DNA from: Butyrivibrio fibrisolvens | GTDB lineage: Bacteria; Bacillota; Clostridia; Lachnospirales; Lachnospiraceae | DNA: 64,000 bases | Direction: 5' to 3' | Assembly: GCF_023206215.1 (NCBI RefSeq) | Contig: NZ_CP065801.1 | Span: forward strand, 62,001 to 126,000 | Shown here: positions 7,055 to 61,661 of the stretch, one piece after another | Numbering within the stretch: position 1 is the first letter of the stretch | Layout of the letters: each line of letters begins with the position of its first letter | The notes under the pieces: model-generated | The model's database searches: none | The model's input: only the letters and a program-made list of their open reading frames with translations | What the model was told of the DNA's origin: nothing | Made by a program: the position numbers and the translations under genes

Positions 7055-7522
7055 GCCATTCTCCCAACTAGTCTTTTTTATTTCAATAGCCAATAAAGCT
7101 TTTGATCTATAGCATTACAGATATACAAGTGTGTACTCGTACATATTTGATCAAATAACAAAGGATATAGATTTATATACATGAACTAAAGTCAAAAAGC
7201 ATTGTAATCATTGTCAAGATTTTATGACAATCCGGATAAATTCATAGGCAAGTAATTTGATCTATATAAATGAGTCAGTATACTAAATATAATCCTTAAG
7301 AATCTATCATCTTTGAAATATAATTATCACATGTCTTATGATATACTTTTCCTTGTTATTCATAAAAACAACCGTTTATATATTATACACAGTTATAATC
7401 ATTTTTTCTACATATATTACAGAATTGTTACTTTAATTCACATATTTGAGTTTCGTTTTTGCTTTATATAGAAAGCTAAAATCCCGACTCTTAATAATCG
7501 TTATCTAATTAGCGGAGAAATT
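7055..7522. other. AT-rich divergent intergenic region
   Basis: It separates the divergent GH5 and pyruvyltransferase genes. An inverted repeat ATTGTCA(N8)TGACAAT at 7210-7231 could be an operator. No further gene or RNA is apparent. Confidence 0.4.
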
Positions 7523-8637
7523 ATGTCAAAAAAATACAAATTCGAGCATACCTCAATAACAATTTCGGAGACGATCTTTTTGTTAAATTGATATGTGACA
7601 GATACCCAAACGAGAAGTTTATCGTGCTTGGAGATTCAGGAAATGATCGCAATCTCAAAGATATAGCCAACCTTAACTATATCAAAACAGATAGTTTATT
7701 TTTTAAGGTTATTAATTCCATTTGTATTAAATGGCAAAAACTCACTAATACTTATAAAGGAAATTATAGAAACCTGTTCTTTATAAATCTTTTCAGCAGA
7801 TTTTGTAAAGATAATATTTTTATAGTAGGTTCATTTTTCGTAGAGACTGATAGATGGGATCACATGTTTGATGAGCCATGGTATAAGTCTCACCCTTACA
7901 TAATAGACTGTAATTTTGGTCCTTATACATCAGAAGAATATTACAAGGAACACAAAAGATGCTTTTCTATGTGCAAACAGGTTTCCTTCAGAGATATTAA
8001 ATCCTATAATCTATTTAGTGATCTGCCTTGTGCCTTATATGCTCCCGATGTTGTATATAACTTAGATTCATCTGATCTGCAGGATGATGGATACTATCTG
8101 ATATCAGTAATGGATTTTGCAAATACTGCAAAGTCCAAGGAAGCAAATTCTTATCATGATTCATACAAAGCCAAACTTCTTGAGGTTGTTTCAAAACTAG
8201 TTGGCATGCAGAAACAAGTTAAGCTCCTTGCTCTTTGCGAAGAACAAGGAGACTATAAAATCGCAAAAGAAATTGAAGACAGCTTGAATTCTCCTTACAT
8301 AGAGAGCATTAATTACAAAGATATAGGGCTAGATGCCACTATAAAACTGTTTAAAAATAGTCACTATATTATCGGTACAAGATTTCATTCAATTGTTCTG
8401 GCTATATTATTCAAGAAAGATTTCTATCCGATAATTTACAGCAATAAAACTGAAAATATGCTTGCTGACATTGAATTTACCGGAAAATCATCACACCTTT
8501 CCCAGGTTAGTAACACGCTTGCTGATGATATGCTTAGTAATAGTTTTAATATACCTTGTGACAAACTTTCTGAATATATTAAGGCTTCCAGTCTTCACTT
8601 TACAAAACTGGATGAAGAGCTCAACCTGATAAAATAA
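7523..8637 (+). pseudogene. Polysaccharide pyruvyl transferase family protein, frame-broken at the fifth codon
   Basis: The natural start is the ATG at 7523, seven bases after GGAG. After MSKK the frame must change to continue into IQIRAYLNNNFGDDLF, the glycine-rich first strand and loop of this family. The junction is an A7 tract (7528-7534); eight A residues would join the frames. From there the frame is open to 8637 with family landmarks FFVETDRWDH and GTRFHSIVLAILF near the end. The family adds ketal pyruvate, or in some members other groups, to sugars. If the tract is real, full-length protein needs slippage; an internal ATG at 7588 would drop the first loop. It is one of few + strand genes in the polysaccharide region. 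Confidence 0.75.
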
Positions 8638-17769: not shown

Positions 17770-18735
17770 TTATAACTTCTTTTCTATATACATATCCGGA
17801 AATAGTGCCAGATAAATGTATCCTAACTTTTTCTTAATACTGATGTTTGTTTTTAAAATATTCTTTAGGACACTTTTCTTGTAAGTCTTAAAGTATTCTT
17901 TTAATATATCTATATCCATTTTTTGCTTTTTAACAGCTTTATAATATCTGACATAGAATATCCTATAAAGAAACAAGTTCTTTTCATACCAATCATATTT
18001 GCCTAAGGACAGATAATGATCCATTCTTTCAGATATTGCATCAAGTCTATGAAGTCTTTTAAGACTAAACTCTTCTCCCATAATACTTGAACTTCGACTG
18101 ACATAATAATAAAGAGGAACATCTATATATGCAATCTTCTTGGCAAGTTCCAAAAGTTTATATGTCGTAAACTCATCTTCATGAATTTTACCTTTTGGAT
18201 ACTTTATTTCTTTAAAAAAAGATGCAGGATATATCTTGTTCCAGGCCACAGTAAATTCTGTATATTTATCACCATAAAAATATGAAAGCCTATCTATGTC
18301 TTCACTAATAAGCTTATAGGATCCTGTATTTATCCTTGAATGATTATCTATTTTGTCATCTTCTTTGACATTTCCGAAACTGCACACAGCTATGTCAGAA
18401 CCTGTAGAAACAACGCCTTCTACCAGGATTTCAATCATACATTCATGTATATAATCATCAGAGTCAATAAATATATAATAACATCCGCTTGCAATGCTTA
18501 TCCCAGCATTCCTGGCATCTGACAGTCCACCGTTTTCTTTATGGATTACTTTGATCCTACTGTCCTTCTTTTTATAGTTTTCGCAGATCTGACCACAACT
18601 ATCCGGTGACCCGTCATCAACAAGTATTATCTCGATATTCTTATATGTTTGGCATATTATGCTATCTATACATTTAGGAAGGTACTTCTCTACATTATAG
18701 ATAGGCACTATTACTGATACCAATATATCATTCAT
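17770..18735 (-). CDS. Glycosyltransferase family 2
   Basis: 321 residues. VSVIVPIYNVEKYLP, LVDDGSPDSCG, IFIDSDDYI, VAWNKIYPASFF and KIHEDEFTTY are the ordered GT2 landmarks. Its closest local relative is the gene at 22389, which has the same VAWNK and EDEFTTYK segments, so the two may share acceptor type or be old duplicates. The ATG follows CATGAGGTTAAAAT, at the border of the repeat at 18741. Confidence 0.85.
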   Translation of the reverse strand: MNDILVSVIVPIYNVEKYLPKCIDSIICQTYKNIEIILVDDGSPDSCGQICENYKKKDSRIKVIHKENGGLSDARNAGISIASGCYYIFIDSDDYIHECMIEILVEGVVSTGSDIAVCSFGNVKEDDKIDNHSRINTGSYKLISEDIDRLSYFYGDKYTEFTVAWNKIYPASFFKEIKYPKGKIHEDEFTTYKLLELAKKIAYIDVPLYYYVSRSSSIMGEEFSLKRLHRLDAISERMDHYLSLGKYDWYEKNLFLYRIFYVRYYKAVKKQKMDIDILKEYFKTYKKSVLKNILKTNISIKKKLGYIYLALFPDMYIEKKL

Positions 18736-18740
18736 ATTTT

Positions 18741-18905
18741 AACCTCATGTCACGAGTAAAGCGAGTGGCTAATAGTTCAAATTGATGGAGCTTGCTTCAT
18801 CAATTTGGGTTTGAAAATGAAACCTTTTCAAGCTTAACATCATGCTGCGAGCAAAGGAAGTAGCTAATAGTTCGCTCCTAATGGAGCTCGCGACACCAAT
18901 TCAAT
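18741..18905. repeat. Two tandem copies of a dispersed hairpin repeat
   Basis: Copy one starts AACCTCATGTCACGAG and contains CAAATTGATG(N10)CATCAATTTG. Copy two, from about 18833, is degenerate (CATGCTGCGAGCAAAG). Related copies lie at 32909 and 40966. The stem differs from the 32.9 kb copy by a paired change, which suggests the folded form matters. Confidence 0.65.
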
Positions 18906-30470: not shown

Positions 30471-30542
30471 CATGCTTTTCCTTCCCCTGTGAGCTAAACG
30501 TTTATAGCCCACAATATTTCCATGTTACAACAAACCTTATCT

Positions 30543-30571
30543 AATATATACAAATCTATTATTATGGTCAA
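30543..30571 (-). promoter_or_regulatory. Promoter of the exopolysaccharide operon
   Basis: On the - strand TTGACC (30566-30571), 17 bases, TATATT (30543-30548), about 70 bases before the kinase-like gene. Confidence 0.65.
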
Positions 30572-30602
30572 GAAATCTTACAATGTTGAAAGCCAATTGA
30601 CC

Positions 30603-30635
30603 AAAAAAATAACCGGCAGAGAAAATCTGCCGGTT
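30603..30635 (-). terminator. Terminator just upstream of the exopolysaccharide promoter
   Basis: AACCGGCAGA(N5)TCTGCCGGTT, a perfect 10-bp stem at 30611-30635, followed on the - strand by a T run. It lies before the promoter and would stop read-through from the IS110 side. Confidence 0.8.
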
Positions 30636-30750
30636 ATACAAAATCAAAATTATTATGATTAAAAAATTCCCAATAAAACCTGCTAACAAATGTCAATAGA
30701 GAAACGGCTTATTTTTAAGTGTTTTCAATTTCACCATTTTAAGCATCACA

Positions 30751-30780
30751 AAAGGGCTGGATGAATAGTCCAGCCTTCTT
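30751..30780 (-). terminator. Terminator-like hairpin behind the IS110 transposase
   Basis: GGCTGGA(N7)TCCAGCC with TTTT on the - strand, starting 16 bases past the transposase stop. The stem is shorter than that of the neighbouring terminator. Confidence 0.6.
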
Positions 30781-30795
30781 ATAACCTGTGGATAC

Positions 30796-31998
30796 TTATT
30801 TGTAGACCGCGGTTACTCTCGCATAATATATACGTAGAAATTTATTCAATCCCGCTATTTTAGCGTGTTTTTTGCACTTTCCCTCATTTTCTTTCTTGAT
30901 TATATAATTATATACAGCAGCATCTTTGGGTGCCGGATGACTCTTAAGTACCCTCATTACTTCATATCCTACTTTTCGTAAAGTTGATGACCCTCTCTTT
31001 GTCATCCTTCGATTTGTGCCCACAAATTGTCCTGACTCGTAAGGTGGTGGATCTATACCGGCACAGGCAATGAGAGCTTTTGCACTATGAAGTTTTCTTA
31101 CATCTCCTATTTCTGCAATTAGTTTTGGTGCTAGCACATCCCCAACACCACCCATTTCTCTAACTGTAGAGTATTCTGGTAAGGACTTAGCAAGAAGCTG
31201 CATTCGTGCTAATATAGTAGCCAAGGAGCTATCTATAGCCCTTAATACTGATACTGCTTCCTGTACTAACATTTTGGTCGATGGGGTACTGGAAGATAGT
31301 GTAGGAATACCACCGGATGCTAATTCATAGACTTCTTCAGCTTTGGATCTGCTCCGGTGATATTTCTTTTCTTTTGCCCAGAGAAGGTACTCATCTGTGA
31401 ACTTTTCAAGACTCATGGAAGTAATTACATCATAATGCCAGAACTTTTCCACAAAATCGCTTAACTTGTCCTTGTTGTTTGATTCGTTCCAGCTATTAAA
31501 CTTTTTCTTGATTCCAGGCATGACATAATCGAGGATATGAGTTAATTCTTGTAAAGCCTTAACATGGAGTTCCATATAGTACCTATATCTGCGCCCTAGC
31601 AGCTTCAACTCAGCATATACCTCTTCGGCACCTTCATACTTTTGGAGCTTAAACCACTTTTCAATTCCATAATTAGCAATCATGATCGAATCAAGTTTGT
31701 CAGTTTTTACACCCCTAAAGTTGTTATCCTTTGCGAATGACTTCATCACAAAAGGATTTACTACAGATACGAAATAGCCTTTCTCTGTAAGATAAGTCAA
31801 TACTGGCAAGTGATAGACGCCCGTTGCTTCCATGACTATACGTATTTCACCATCTAACTTCTGGAGAATACTATCGAGTCCATCTAGCTCCTTCTCTACA
31901 TGTTGCATTTCAAAAGGACTGCACACTATTTCTCCATACGGCTTAAGTATGCAGACAGTGCTTTTTCCTTTTGATACATCAATTCCAACACTAATCAT
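30796..31998 (-). CDS. IS110-family transposase (DEDD recombinase)
   Basis: About 400 residues from the ATG at 31998 with GGAGGAGG upstream. The N-terminal RuvC-like domain shows MISVGIDVSKG (first Asp), MEATGVYH (Glu) and RGVKTDKLDS (Asp pair). The C-terminal Tnp_20 region has REMGGVGDVLAPKLIAEIG, then AGIDPPPYESGQF and KRGSSTLRK, where the catalytic Ser is expected. The gene is full length. Members integrate without classic terminal inverted repeats and, in recent work, use a bridge RNA made from the element's own non-coding end. The element sits between the polysaccharide operon and the dehydrogenase gene. Confidence 0.9.
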   Translation of the reverse strand: MISVGIDVSKGKSTVCILKPYGEIVCSPFEMQHVEKELDGLDSILQKLDGEIRIVMEATGVYHLPVLTYLTEKGYFVSVVNPFVMKSFAKDNNFRGVKTDKLDSIMIANYGIEKWFKLQKYEGAEEVYAELKLLGRRYRYYMELHVKALQELTHILDYVMPGIKKKFNSWNESNNKDKLSDFVEKFWHYDVITSMSLEKFTDEYLLWAKEKKYHRSRSKAEEVYELASGGIPTLSSSTPSTKMLVQEAVSVLRAIDSSLATILARMQLLAKSLPEYSTVREMGGVGDVLAPKLIAEIGDVRKLHSAKALIACAGIDPPPYESGQFVGTNRRMTKRGSSTLRKVGYEVMRVLKSHPAPKDAAVYNYIIKKENEGKCKKHAKIAGLNKFLRIYYARVTAVYK

Positions 31999-32265
31999 TC
32001 TGAACCTCCTCCAACTGTAAATAGTAATTGTTCCAGCCACACTTATTACCATTCAGTTTAGTTGGTTACACGGGTGTTTCTCCCTACCTGCTTAAGCGAA
32101 TGCTTATAATAAGGGGTTGGTTAACGGTTTTATTGACGGATGCAATGATCCAAAAAAGCACACGTCAGACCAATTACTCCCCTTATTATAAAAAAATAAG
32201 TGCAGATGTCAGAGTTAATTACTCTCTAACAACTACACTTTTATGGTACTAAATAAATCCCCTCT
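31999..32265 (-). ncRNA. Candidate IS110 non-coding end / bridge RNA region
   Basis: About 265 bases upstream of the transposase with no gene but strong structure. TTATAATAAGGGG (32104-32116) pairs perfectly with CCCCTTATTATAA (32179-32191). A second imperfect stem runs from AAGTG to CACTT at about 32198-32241. In IS110-group elements the guide RNA comes from this side; element ends are not defined here. It is structure plus position, not an RNA match. Confidence 0.4.
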
Positions 32266-32659: not shown

Positions 32660-33479
32660 ACCCTTTCTGCGGGTATTACCACGAATTTTTCTAACGTCCT
32701 TATTTTACCAAAAAAAGCATTTATTAAAAATGTACAAATTAGACAATTTTAAAATATTAATATAGCACAAAAGCCTCTTGATTTTTTAGTTTGAGCATGA
32801 ACGTTATTGCGATTTCTTAAGTATAATGCATGAAAACAGTTATATCTTCAGCATTTATCACTGCTTAGAGCAATTAGCATATTTGCCCACTTTCTTTTGG
32901 TCATTTTTAACCTCATGTCGCGAGCAAAGCGAGTGACTAATGGTTCAAATTGGTGGAGCTCGCGACACCAATTTGGGTTTGAAAGTGGAACACTTTCAAA
33001 CTTAACTTAACGTCATAAGAAAAACAATTTGCCAGTAGTTCCAAATTAATTGAACTCGTGATATCAATTTAGCTTTAAATAAGTATTTTCAAATTCAACC
33101 TCTTGTCACAAGCAAAATATGCGGCTAATAAGTTCCAATTGTAAACAAGCTAAAAATAATATCTGGCCGTGATATGTTATTGCAGATAACATTTATTGTA
33201 TTTTTAAAATTATAATTGCACTTTTTATAATATAATGTTATTGTAAATTATGTAATTTATATCAGCGATTGTTATTTATGATAACATCTGATAAAAATTA
33301 CAAGAATTTTCAAATTTATTATCAAAACTATTGAACAAGTTTAGTGGAGCTAATGTATATTTTAAATCATATGACTTATCTTTGAATAAGTCAGTAACAC
33401 TTATAAGCTCCCCGAATTGGAGTAGCGAGCTCTGCCAATATCAAACAATAAAACACTCGCAGAAAGATGTGAAATAATT
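32660..33479. other. 820-base intergenic region with hairpin repeats
   Basis: No gene seen. 32909-33140 holds the dispersed repeat. Around 33210-33300 is a very AT-rich stretch that could carry the promoter of the dehydrogenase gene, but I cannot choose one. The leader ends with GAAAGATGTGAAATAATT before the ATG. Confidence 0.5.
32909..33140. repeat. Dispersed hairpin repeat, one good and two decayed tandem copies
   Basis: Copy one: AACCTCATGTCGCGAGC, then the stem CAAATTGGTG(N10)CACCAATTTG. Two decayed copies start near 33001 and 33097 (AACCTCTTGTCACAAGC). It is the same family as 18741-18905 and 40966-41005. Confidence 0.65.
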
Positions 33480-34958
33480 ATGAAGAAAATATCACAAGAA
33501 AATCTTGCAAACACAATCATTACCAGCCGTAAGTCACTTAACATGACTCAGGCACAGCTTTCAGAAGCCACAGGCATCAACCGCACAATGCTAAGCCACC
33601 TTGAATCCGGTGAATACATGCCTTCTATACCTCAGCTTGAAGCACTTTCTGAAACACTCAAATTCGATATTACAGATCTTTTCGAAGAAACAGATGACAC
33701 AAACTCTCTTCCAAAAGCATCTCCCAAGAATATCGCAGTTGCAGGAACTGGATATGTAGGCCTTTCACTTGCCACTCTTCTGGCTCAGCACAACCACGTA
33801 ACAGCTGTAGATATCATTCCTGAGAAAGTCGAGATGCTCAACAACAAGAAATCCCCTATCCAGGACGATTATATCGAGAAATATCTTGCAGAAAAAGAGC
33901 TTGATCTTACAGCTACAACAGATGGCGCTGCAGCTTACAAGGATGCTGATTTTGTCATAATCGCAGCACCAACCAACTATGATGCAAAGAAGAACTATTT
34001 TGACACGTCAGCTGTTGAGTCTGTAATCGAACTCGTAATGAGCGTAAATCCTAATGCTGTAATGGTGATCAAATCCACCATTCCTGTTGGTTACACAGTG
34101 TCTGTCAGAAAGAAATACAACACAGATAAGATCATATTCAGCCCTGAGTTCCTTCGTGAATCCAAAGCTTTGTACGATAATCTCTATCCTTCACGTATTA
34201 TCGTAAGTACAGATTCTAATAACGCATCTCTTGATAAGGCAGCCCACGAATTTGCAGCACTCCTTCAGGAAGGCGCTATCAAAAAGAATATCGATACATT
34301 GTTCATGGGCTTTACAGAAGCAGAAGCTGTAAAACTTTTTGCTAATACATATCTTGCACTTAGAGTATCTTATTTCAACGAGCTTGATACCTATGCTGAA
34401 TCCAAGGATCTCAATACAAAACAGATAATAAGCGGCGTATGCCTTGATCCTCGTATCGGAACTCATTATAACAATCCATCCTTTGGCTATGGTGGATATT
34501 GCCTCCCTAAGGATACCAAGCAGCTTCTTGCAAACTATCAGGACGTTCCTGAAAACCTTATAGAAGCTATCGTAGAATCAAACCGCACAAGAAAAGACTT
34601 CATCGCAGACAGAGTTCTCGATATCGCTGGAGCTTATGGTAACTCTGAGTCATTCTCAAAATCAAAAGAACATGAAGTAGTAGTTGGTGTATACAGACTT
34701 ACAATGAAGTCTAATTCTGACAACTTCCGCCAGTCATCTATTCAGGGAATCATGAAGAGAATCAAGGCAAAAGGCGCTAAGGTTGTGATCTACGAACCGA
34801 CTCTTGAAGATGGATCAACATTCTTTGGTAGTGAGGTTGTCAACGATCTTGATAAATTCAAGAAGATAAGCCATTCTATCATCGCTAATCGCTATAACAG
34901 CTGCCTTGATGATGTTAAAGAAAAGGTTTATACAAGAGATTTGTTCCAGAGAGACTGA
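33480..34958 (+). CDS. ugd: UDP-glucose/nucleotide-sugar 6-dehydrogenase with N-terminal XRE-type HTH domain
   Basis: 492 residues. Residues 10-65 form a helix-turn-helix of the Cro/C1 type ([38 protein letters not shown]). A short linker leads to a complete dehydrogenase: [12 protein letters not shown] (NAD site, 86-96), [18 protein letters not shown], and [10 protein letters not shown] with catalytic Cys341. The dehydrogenase oxidises UDP-glucose, or a related sugar nucleotide, to the uronate for polysaccharide synthesis. The HTH suggests it also binds DNA, perhaps its own leader or the nearby operon. Ordinary Ugd proteins start at the Rossmann motif, so the fusion is unusual. The frame is continuous and both parts share codon use. 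A strong terminator follows. Confidence 0.85.
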
Positions 34959-34968
34959 TAATTATCGA

Positions 34969-35003
34969 TAAAAAGCCTTGGCTACGGTAGCCAAGGCTTT
35001 TTA
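34969..35003. terminator. Bidirectional terminator after ugd
   Basis: AAAAAGCCTTGGCTA(CGG)TAGCCAAGGCTTTTT, a 15-bp perfect stem, with A and T runs on both sides. It lies between convergent genes. Confidence 0.9.
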
Positions 35004-40944: not shown

Positions 40945-40965
40945 AGTAGTATAATCACATTGTTA

Positions 40966-41005
40966 ACCTCATGTCACGAGCAAAGAAAGTGACTGATTGT
41001 TCACT
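40966..41005. repeat. Partial copy of the dispersed hairpin repeat
   Basis: AACCTCATGTCACGAGCAAAG followed by AGTGACTGATTGTTC, the left half of the family at 18741 and 32909. It overlaps the end of echF. Confidence 0.55.
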
Positions 41006-60425: not shown

Positions 60426-61661
60426 ATGCCGAACAGTATCGTAAAAAAAGGTGATAACTATAAGAAAAGTAATTTCCTTATAACTTCTAAATACAAATCT
60501 TCTATTCTTGAAAATAAGATCCTGTCTATCGCTCTTGCTAATGCTGATGATATTCATGAAGAAAGTGAAGGTCTTGTTTACGAGATCGCTGTTTCTGATC
60601 TTAAGCGTAAGATGAATATCAGTAAAAGCTATGGTAGCTTTTATGATAAGCTTGATGATGCTGCTAAATCTATGACAGGTCGTACTATTGGTACCAGCAA
60701 TAAAAAGAATCGTACATTTGATTATATATCTGTCGTTACCAGAGCTACCAGTAAAGATGGTATTTTCAGGATTATTTTTAACCCTGCACTTAAAGATAAT
60801 ATTATTGACATTAAAGATAAATTTACTGTTCTAAAGCTTTCAACAATGCTTTCTTTTAAGTCCTCATACTCTCTTCGTCTTTATGAACTTTTGAAAGATG
60901 AGCTCCAGGAGATTAAGTGGCAACAGGATAGAGATGCTATTACTCTTGGCAAAAAAAATACATACAGGCAGGAGAATCTTTTCAAATACGAGACATCAAT
61001 CGGACTTGCAGAGCTAAAACTTGAAATGGGCGTAGTCAATGCTGAACTTGATAAAGTAAAAAGAGTTCTTCAGGGAAAAAATCCTGATTATGAGAAAGCA
61101 GTTGCCAGTTCACCGGAACAGATTTTCAAATCCTGGAGTGATTTTAGAAGACGTGTTCTTGAAAAGGCTACTGAAGAAATAAATGAAAAGACCGATCTAC
61201 ACGTAGATTTTGAAGCTGACAAAGCAGGCCGTGGCGGCAAAGTTGTAGGTGTAACTTTTATAATTACAGATTCTAAGAGCTATAAGAACTCAAGTGCTGG
61301 CATTAAAACCGAATCTTCCGATGTTTTTATGGACGATTTGGGTGATCCATACATTGTTGAAGCAGAAGAACTTGATATCGATGATCTTATAGATAAAGTT
61401 AGGATGATCATCTCTGAAAATCTTAAGACTAAGGAGATTAAATCTATCCTTCAGGCTGCAGATAATGATATCAGCAAGATCAAAGATGCATACGAACTTG
61501 CTTGCAAACAGTCCGAGATTGAAAACCTTGTAGGATGGATGATATCTGCAATAAAAAATGGATATACAGCTACTCCTAAAAGGAAAAATAATACGTATTC
61601 TGACTTTGAACAAAACACTTATGATTATGAATTGTTAGAAGATGAATTGCGTGCAAATTAA
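60426..61661 (+). CDS. Plasmid replication initiator, Rep_3 (RepB) superfamily
   Basis: 411 residues. Two winged-helix domains: NFLITSKYKSSILENKILSIALAN opens the first, and FTVLKLSTMLSFKSSYSLRLYELLK is the strongly conserved helix pair before the second. It would bind the iterons just upstream and load the replisome. A C-terminal region of about 130 acidic residues is longer than in small plasmid Reps. AGAGGGGGG lies four to five bases before the ATG. TGGAC-GATTT-GGGTG occurs inside the gene at 61330. Confidence 0.93.
   Translation: MPNSIVKKGDNYKKSNFLITSKYKSSILENKILSIALANADDIHEESEGLVYEIAVSDLKRKMNISKSYGSFYDKLDDAAKSMTGRTIGTSNKKNRTFDYISVVTRATSKDGIFRIIFNPALKDNIIDIKDKFTVLKLSTMLSFKSSYSLRLYELLKDELQEIKWQQDRDAITLGKKNTYRQENLFKYETSIGLAELKLEMGVVNAELDKVKRVLQGKNPDYEKAVASSPEQIFKSWSDFRRRVLEKATEEINEKTDLHVDFEADKAGRGGKVVGVTFIITDSKSYKNSSAGIKTESSDVFMDDLGDPYIVEAEELDIDDLIDKVRMIISENLKTKEIKSILQAADNDISKIKDAYELACKQSEIENLVGWMISAIKNGYTATPKRKNNTYSDFEQNTYDYELLEDELRAN

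Follow-up and report, generated by a model that had tools for sequence, protein, structure and literature searches.

A UDP-glucose 6-dehydrogenase fused to a Cro/C1-type helix–turn–helix domain: a predicted trigger enzyme with candidate operators in its own leader

Introduction

According to PMC12421817, NadR of Enterobacterales unites a helix–turn–helix (HTH) domain with NMN adenylyltransferase and ribosylnicotinamide kinase and acts as a repressor, the HTH being restricted to some lineages; PutA and BirA are presented, in PMC6978683, as enzyme and repressor in one protein. The gene considered here, located in a 64-kb window (the whole stretch of Butyrivibrio fibrisolvens DNA that was analysed), joins an HTH to a UDP-glucose 6-dehydrogenase (Ugd), and a literature search of titles and abstract openings found, among the matches listed, no description of a fused UDP-sugar dehydrogenase regulator. 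UDP-glucuronate supplies many capsules and exopolysaccharides. It is proposed, with a probability that we would place at roughly 0.76, that the protein is a self-regulating trigger enzyme whose HTH would bind palindromes and repress its own promoter, its own leader being the main or only target.

Results

Architecture of the fused gene

The genome is in two contigs, and the window belongs to the second of them, 337 kb long, so that it is probably part of a large plasmid or chromid; a Rep3-type replication initiator (Pfam Rep3_N, 81.6 bits) is encoded at 60426–61661. Open reading frame and Pfam analyses confirmed what the earlier note had reported at 33480–34958, namely the fusion of a Cro/C1-type HTH to a dehydrogenase in a single frame: HTH_3 (46.5 bits against a cut-off of 23) and all three UDP-sugar dehydrogenase domains scored above their cut-offs. 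The HTH span given in that note (residues 10–65) was roughly right when set beside the Pfam match (residues 17–67), and the complete UDP-sugar 6-dehydrogenase with NAD site and catalytic Cys341 that it described was borne out by Pfam, by alignment and by a check of the relevant positions. The features concerned are as follows.

33480–34958, plus strand: fused HTH–UDP-glucose 6-dehydrogenase gene, 492 aa, one uninterrupted frame with an ATG start
33528–33680, plus strand: HTH_3 (Cro/C1-type) domain, residues 17–67 (Pfam, 46.5 bits)
33576–33605, plus strand: recognition-helix segment, residues 33–42, with a probable DNA-reading role judged from the HTH fold
33687–33728, plus strand: variable linker, residues 70–83, with high column entropy and a pLDDT dip at about 71–80
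33729–34229, plus strand: NAD-binding domain UDPG_MGDP_dh_N, residues 84–250 (Pfam)
34317–34586, plus strand: central domain UDPG_MGDP_dh, residues 280–369 (Pfam)
34500–34502, plus strand: codon of catalytic Cys341, aligned to residue 260 of 1dli and Cys in 71/71 fused proteins
34686–34919, plus strand: UDP-binding domain UDPG_MGDP_dh_C, residues 403–480 (Pfam)
34970–35002, no strand assigned: terminator-like hairpin with a T run, 3' of the fused gene, read from the sequence by eye

Given this hairpin and the convergent orientation of the next gene, which lies on the other strand, the fused gene appears to be monocistronic.

The enzyme half

Residues 84–492 aligned with Klebsiella Ugd (3phl) and with the UDP-glucose dehydrogenase 1dli, structures that we take to be of the Klebsiella and S. 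pyogenes enzymes, respectively; the residue of 1dli that aligns with Cys341 is Ser in 1dlj. The score against TIGR03026 (nucleotide sugar dehydrogenase) was 310.4 bits, above the cut-off of 189.8, and the best family match was the NCBIfam UDP-glucose 6-dehydrogenase equivalog PRK15057, with 582.5 under a cut-off of 757, for which reason UDP-glucose is named only as the probable substrate. T200, E223, E227, K285, N289, C341 and D345, presumably the catalytic positions, were invariant in 71/71 fused proteins, and there is thus no sign at the positions checked that the fused protein has turned into a regulator only. The next enzyme matches in a search of the genome (E ≤ 0.001) were 33% and 24% identical to the fused Ugd; with no other close homologue in the genome, the fused protein presumably serves as the working enzyme, and its C-terminal 410 residues probably constitute a functional UDP-glucose 6-dehydrogenase.

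The HTH half

An AlphaFold2 model built from a 42-row alignment (mean pLDDT 77.6, with residues 296–301, 328–368 and 410–418 below 50) gave block-mean pLDDT values of 82–94 over residues 1–70 and 85–94 over residues 11–60, and placed five HTH helices at residues 6–19, 24–31, 35–42, 50–60 and 64–67; an earlier model from 18 rows was weaker (pLDDT 67). R17, E42, P48, Q52 and L60 were invariant in 71/71 fused proteins and R35 was present in 70/71, the lone exception, L046 (Cys), being also without a site in the 195 bp of leader available for it. Column entropy in the linker of the same proteins was mostly above 2 bits, rising to 3.1–3.5 at residues 71–80. L007, which has an internal stop, was excluded from these residue counts and from the tree, and contributed its leader only; in it, as in L200, a stop codon interrupts the fused dehydrogenase frame, reflecting either an assembly error or a broken gene.

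Comparison with the loci L158 and L159, for which dS is near saturation, returned dN values of 0.10–0.12 for the HTH and 0.033–0.034 for the enzyme, the HTH evolving faster, and dN/dS ratios of about 0.06 and 0.02–0.03, respectively; against L085 the ratios were 0.23 and 0.04. These values indicate that the HTH is under selection.

Predicted operators in the leader of the window gene

The features of the leader are as follows.

33175–33191, no strand assigned: predicted operator O1, TGTTATTGCAGATAACA, 16.5 bits, an exact palindrome with arms conserved in L158/L159
33203–33231, plus strand: alternative promoter-like match TTTAAA-17-TATAAT, between O1 and O2, one of 11 consensus matches in the region where 6.1 were expected
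33216–33221, plus strand: probable -35, TTGCAC, near TTGACT of the aligned L158/L159
33236–33244, plus strand: probable extended -10, TGTTATTGT, with ATAATGTTATTGTA identical in the window, L158 and L159
33270–33286, no strand assigned: predicted operator O2, TGTTATTTATGATAACA, 20.0 bits, an exact palindrome with arms conserved in L158/L159
33290–33479, plus strand: extended leader from O2 to the ATG, exceeding that of L158/L159 by about 170 bp

O1 and O2 lie 95 bp apart, flank the promoter-like stretch, and are the sole exact TGTTAT-N5-ATAACA sites in the window. The same pair recurs 94 bp apart in L158/L159, where the 12 arm bases are kept in full at both sites and the 5-base cores differ; the distance from the end of O2 to the ATG is 193 bp in the window as against 21 bp in those loci. 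A decayed third operator at 33236 was considered and rejected, the stretch being shared with L158/L159 and read as the extended -10.

The suggestion that hairpin repeats in the leader might be targets stood in part: two operator-like palindromes, O1 and O2, are present there, but another of the repeats is a genome-wide element of about 100 bp with distant copies. This REP- or MITE-like interspersed repeat, at 32895–33012, had 49 genome matches (40 of 145 candidates scored), recurs in the window at 18732–18838 and partly at 40958–41003 (blastn of the leader), and may explain part of the 'hairpin repeats'. An IS110-type transposase gene (Pfam; 30796–32052) lies between the polysaccharide operon and the leader of the fused gene.

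A palindrome shared by fused-gene leaders

The leaders of fused genes share a 17-bp palindrome, TGTTAT-N5-ATAACA or variants of it, which was first noticed by eye while reading the 45 leaders of a training set. An unbiased count of dyads was in agreement: 5-base arms with a spacer of 7 occurred in 33/45 of these leaders, where 20 shuffles gave a mean of 17.8 and no more than 23, as against 17/66 others, and TGTTA-N7-TAACA in 15/45 as against 0/66, the 66 controls including L015, itself fused. With L015 moved, exact TGTYR-N7-YRACA was present within 400 bp upstream of 30/45 fused loci and 0/65 others, while a symmetric matrix scored by leave-one-out at a threshold of 12 bits or more recorded 35/47 fused loci and 1/65 others, the lone control match (L032) lying within an upstream coding frame. 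When the 47-locus matrix was applied to a hold-out set that excluded the near-copies L212, L214 and L225, 18/25 fused leaders and 0/48 others passed; moving L227, which is fused and site-less, gave 18/26 fused and 0/47 HTH-less. In 60 dinucleotide shuffles a mean of 0.42 leaders in 72 passed, and never more than 2, against 53/72 observed; for the hold-out leaders the mean was 0.12 in 25 against 18/25. The palindromes are accordingly nearly restricted, among the ugd loci compared, to the leaders of fused genes.

These counts treat L015 and L227 as fused, save in the 66 dyad-count controls; L022 (HTH masked as N, probably fused) remains among the 65 controls and was left out of the tree contrasts. 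When the stretch ahead of each of the 113 control rows was searched for HTH-like sequence, L227 was the sole hit, L022 being masked there. Control counts are unthinned, and thinning at 95% identity reduces the 64 that remain when L022 is set aside to 57, and the 47 to 44. Also excluded were L193, in which the pattern used recovered no enzyme frame, and L200, whose frame is interrupted by a stop codon; three fused rows of the family sample without a locus (G555, G773 and G807) fall outside the operator counts. Related loci are not independent: fusion against site provided two well-supported independent contrasts, too few for significance, of which on average 1.6 were as expected and none or almost none opposite.

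Sites of 10 bits or more were found once or more in 57/72 leaders and twice or more in 36/72. No site reached 12 bits in 19/72, and 14 of those 19 leaders belong to proteins with Gly39. A site begins 25–50 bp before the start codon in 34/72 leaders; taking promoter positions as consensus matches rather than mapped starts, the best promoter-like match falls between two sites in 23 of the 72, and sites lie only downstream of it in 15. Such a layout, with sites near the start codon and flanking the promoter-like match, suits repression by blocking or looping. Spacings across the promoter were mostly 94–161 bp, with no helical phasing seen by eye in the 72 leaders. Tandem upstream operator-like sites 33 bp apart, or about three turns of DNA, were observed in L033, L057, L083, L210 and L211.

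Recognition helix and operator letters

A site was present for 46/51 proteins with Ser39 and 5/19 with Gly39 (Fisher 4e-7, relatedness ignored). Within the 46 Ser39 loci that have a site, residue 36 tracked bases 4–5 of the half-site: Ala36 was associated with TA in 46/56 half-sites and Thr36 in 25/32, Ser36 with TG in 25/54 and TA in 21, and Gly36 with C at base 4 in 13/20, while His40 was accompanied by TA in 33/34. A separate matrix for Gly39 sites (TKCTR-N7-YAGMA; 12 bits or more) matched 13/19 Gly39 and 30/51 Ser39 leaders and, having been seeded from sequences already inspected, is only a lead. The tree offered two contrasts between Gly39 and operator and four between residue 36 and the letters of the half-site (about two of the four with no letter difference), nearly all in the expected direction or without difference, and too few for significance. 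The letters of the predicted operators thus covary with residues 36 and 39, and phylogeny may also be a cause; should independent data confirm the covariation, the sites would belong to the fused HTH and not to another regulator.

Other possible targets

The 4.45-Mb genome (G000) contains four exact TGTTAT-N5-ATAACA sites, two of which are O1 and O2, the others lying within a 799-aa frame and between convergent frames. There was no clear enrichment over a reversed control (exact, 4 against 4; one mismatch, 50 against 34), and a genome-wide regulon defined by exact sites, its count equal to that of the control, was dismissed as unsupported. Among other genomes with the fusion, the only two exact sites present in G008 both precede its fused gene, and so do two of the four in G066, which are spaced 94 bp apart; G025 has two, neither at its fused gene, the leader of which carries a variant site. 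The polysaccharide-operon promoter at 30536–30640, put forward earlier as a target, found no support, the best matrix score within 30500–30800 being 1.4 bits as against 16.5 and 20.0 at O1 and O2. Outside the own leader, sites of 15 bits or more numbered two in 46 other fused loci (484 kb) and two in HTH-less loci (511 kb), no more than background. A weak operator-like pair 72 bp apart, at 7354–7370 (13.4 bits) and 7426–7442 (11.8 bits), precedes a polysaccharide pyruvyl transferase gene (7588–8637) and is perhaps a second target, or chance.

In 14/46 fused loci the next gene, co-oriented and within 120 bp, encodes an NAD-dependent epimerase/dehydratase as judged by its opening residues. Five such neighbours matched dTDP-glucose dehydratase and UDP-glucose 4-epimerase models of NCBIfam below their cut-offs, and one matched Pfam Epimerase, with 5u4q, titled dTDP-glucose 4,6-dehydratase, as its best solved structure; we infer a UDP-glucuronate 4-epimerase. 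A second dehydrogenase follows the fused gene directly in L054 (confirmed by NCBIfam), L057 and L060 and is divergent from it in L010 (these three called by opening residues), such that one fused enzyme might also control an adjacent second UDP-glucose dehydrogenase in these four loci.

Spread and history of the fusion

Of the 7,996 homologues scored, the top 120 all carried an HTH Pfam domain at a query coverage of at least 99%, in a list ranked by score and hence favouring full-length matches. Where named by their source, homologues were called nucleotide sugar dehydrogenase or UDPglucose 6-dehydrogenase, names that mention the enzyme alone and suggest that the regulatory half has been overlooked. 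The fusion was present in 43/80 named loci (L022, with its HTH masked, counted as fused), including Oribacterium, Anaerococcus, Veillonella, Enterococcus italicus and Streptococcus suis (metagenome-bin labels as printed), and in 5/61 genomes of the genus (G000, G008, G025, G066 and G084). Few candidates per genome were scored, so that counts from the genome samples are lower bounds: at least 4/391 genomes of the class were fused, and in the phylum sample the own genome alone among 398 matched at E ≤ 1e-150. The HTH_3 plus UDPG_MGDP_dh architecture, which the earlier note had proposed to seek across Lachnospiraceae, is recurrent there, at least 31/397 family genomes (own genome included; one with an internal stop) yielding a fused match over the full length at E ≤ 1e-215. 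The random, unconserved N-terminal extension that the note had named as the contrary outcome is excluded, the fusion being conserved, if patchily, in Lachnospiraceae and other Bacillota.

In a quick tree of 181 enzyme domains, with 66 of 178 forks open, the fused label changed 8–10 times, at least three of the changes being forced by well-supported branches, and an HTH-less clade of 42 rows (support 96) was nested among fused rows. The pattern suggests to us an ancient fusion followed by several probable losses of the HTH and some transfer, a single origin not being proved. HTH and enzyme distances correlated in the 71 fused proteins (Mantel r 0.45; 0/999 permutations as high), as expected if both halves travel together.

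Discussion

At sequence level, the fused protein displays two attributes of a trigger enzyme, namely intact catalytic positions together with a DNA-binding domain, and a candidate cognate operator at its own gene. The direct feedback on its own gene envisaged in the earlier note is well backed by sequence evidence of two kinds, the conserved HTH and the operator-like palindromes of the leader. From these features we infer that the protein binds DNA, driven by dimerization, and that it represses in preference to activating, with looping; the reading of substrate or NADH state suggested in the earlier note may add control by UDP-sugar or NAD(H). The enzyme body would pair the N-terminal HTH heads, two of which would bind each TGTTAT-N5-ATAACA palindrome; the UDP-glucose dehydrogenase of S. 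pyogenes is a dimer. Since O1 lies upstream of the promoter and O2 just downstream, protein bound at both would most likely block or loop it and so repress the gene, with the own leader as the main or sole target.

The sign of the predicted control bears on the first alternative, that the HTH binds the same sites but activates, or that a ligand switches the sign. The position of O1 upstream of the promoter is the usual one for an activator, and in some fused loci the sites lie solely upstream of the best promoter-like match; activation is nevertheless considered unlikely, given the 34/72 leaders in which a site starts 25–50 bp before the start codon, an arrangement suited to repression. Control of a wider polysaccharide regulon would accommodate the weak pair ahead of the pyruvyl transferase gene, but the low best score at the polysaccharide operon (1.4 bits in 30500–30800), the absence of any site excess in the flanks of fused loci, and the location of the two exact sites elsewhere in the genome, one in a frame and one between convergent frames, make it quite improbable. 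That the palindromes serve another regulator, or are a general feature of ugd promoters, is very unlikely: many XRE-type sites are AT-rich palindromes, and DNA binding by the fused protein is itself a prediction, but sites of 12 bits or more were found in only 1/65 (L032, in a coding frame) and 0/47 control ugd leaders, and the operator letters vary with residues 36 and 39 of the fused HTH.

Little credence can be given to the HTH as a relic or as serving a structural role alone. Its probable repeated loss, seen in the 8–10 label changes of which at least three are forced by well-supported branches, would fit such a view, but R17, E42, P48, Q52 and L60 (71/71) and R35 (70/71) are held next to a linker free to vary, the dN/dS of the HTH is about 0.06 against L158/L159, and cognate sites recur in the hold-out leaders. 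Fainter still is the prospect of a role at the RNA level, with the palindromes serving as attenuator hairpins instead of DNA operators; they are indeed inverted repeats in leader position, but their arms are short and AT-rich, and O1, placed before the probable promoter, would be absent from the transcript of the gene.

Returning to the self-repressing enzyme as the preferred reading, a tentative extension, to which we would give rather less than an even chance, is a one-gene homeostat in which catalysis gates DNA binding. An idle enzyme, whether through low UDP-glucose or high product, would grip both operators by way of its oligomeric body and shut the gene, and a busy enzyme would release them; operator specificity would have evolved in step with residues 36 and 39, with HTH and sites shed jointly in several lineages. 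If the main reading is true, an enzyme bearing its own repressor would represent a new type of metabolic feedback device in the UDP-glucuronate pathway. The predicted operator is directly testable, and the natural pairs of recognition helix and operator could show how such heads choose their DNA.

Of the known systems, the Ugd structures 3phl and 1dli share the enzyme half, the match to their chains beginning at residue 84, so that they lack the HTH. GalR-type repression employs two operators flanking a promoter, and is resembled here by two palindromes about 95–160 bp apart around the promoter; unlike the GalR-type repressor, the body of the present protein is an enzyme rather than a sugar-binding protein fold, and looping is a prediction. 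PutA and BirA are under ligand control, which in the fused protein is only a possibility, and they differ from it in their enzymes and in their DNA-binding parts. In common with them, as presented in PMC6978683, a single protein combines an enzyme and, in this case, a predicted repressor. Like NadR, as described in PMC12421817, the fused protein has an N-terminal HTH on a pathway enzyme, with HTH-less orthologues elsewhere; unlike NadR, it has other enzyme domains and gave no Pfam match to NMN adenylyltransferase or ribosylnicotinamide kinase. The fused protein is consequently no member of the NadR, PutA or BirA families, and what it shares with them is the working principle.
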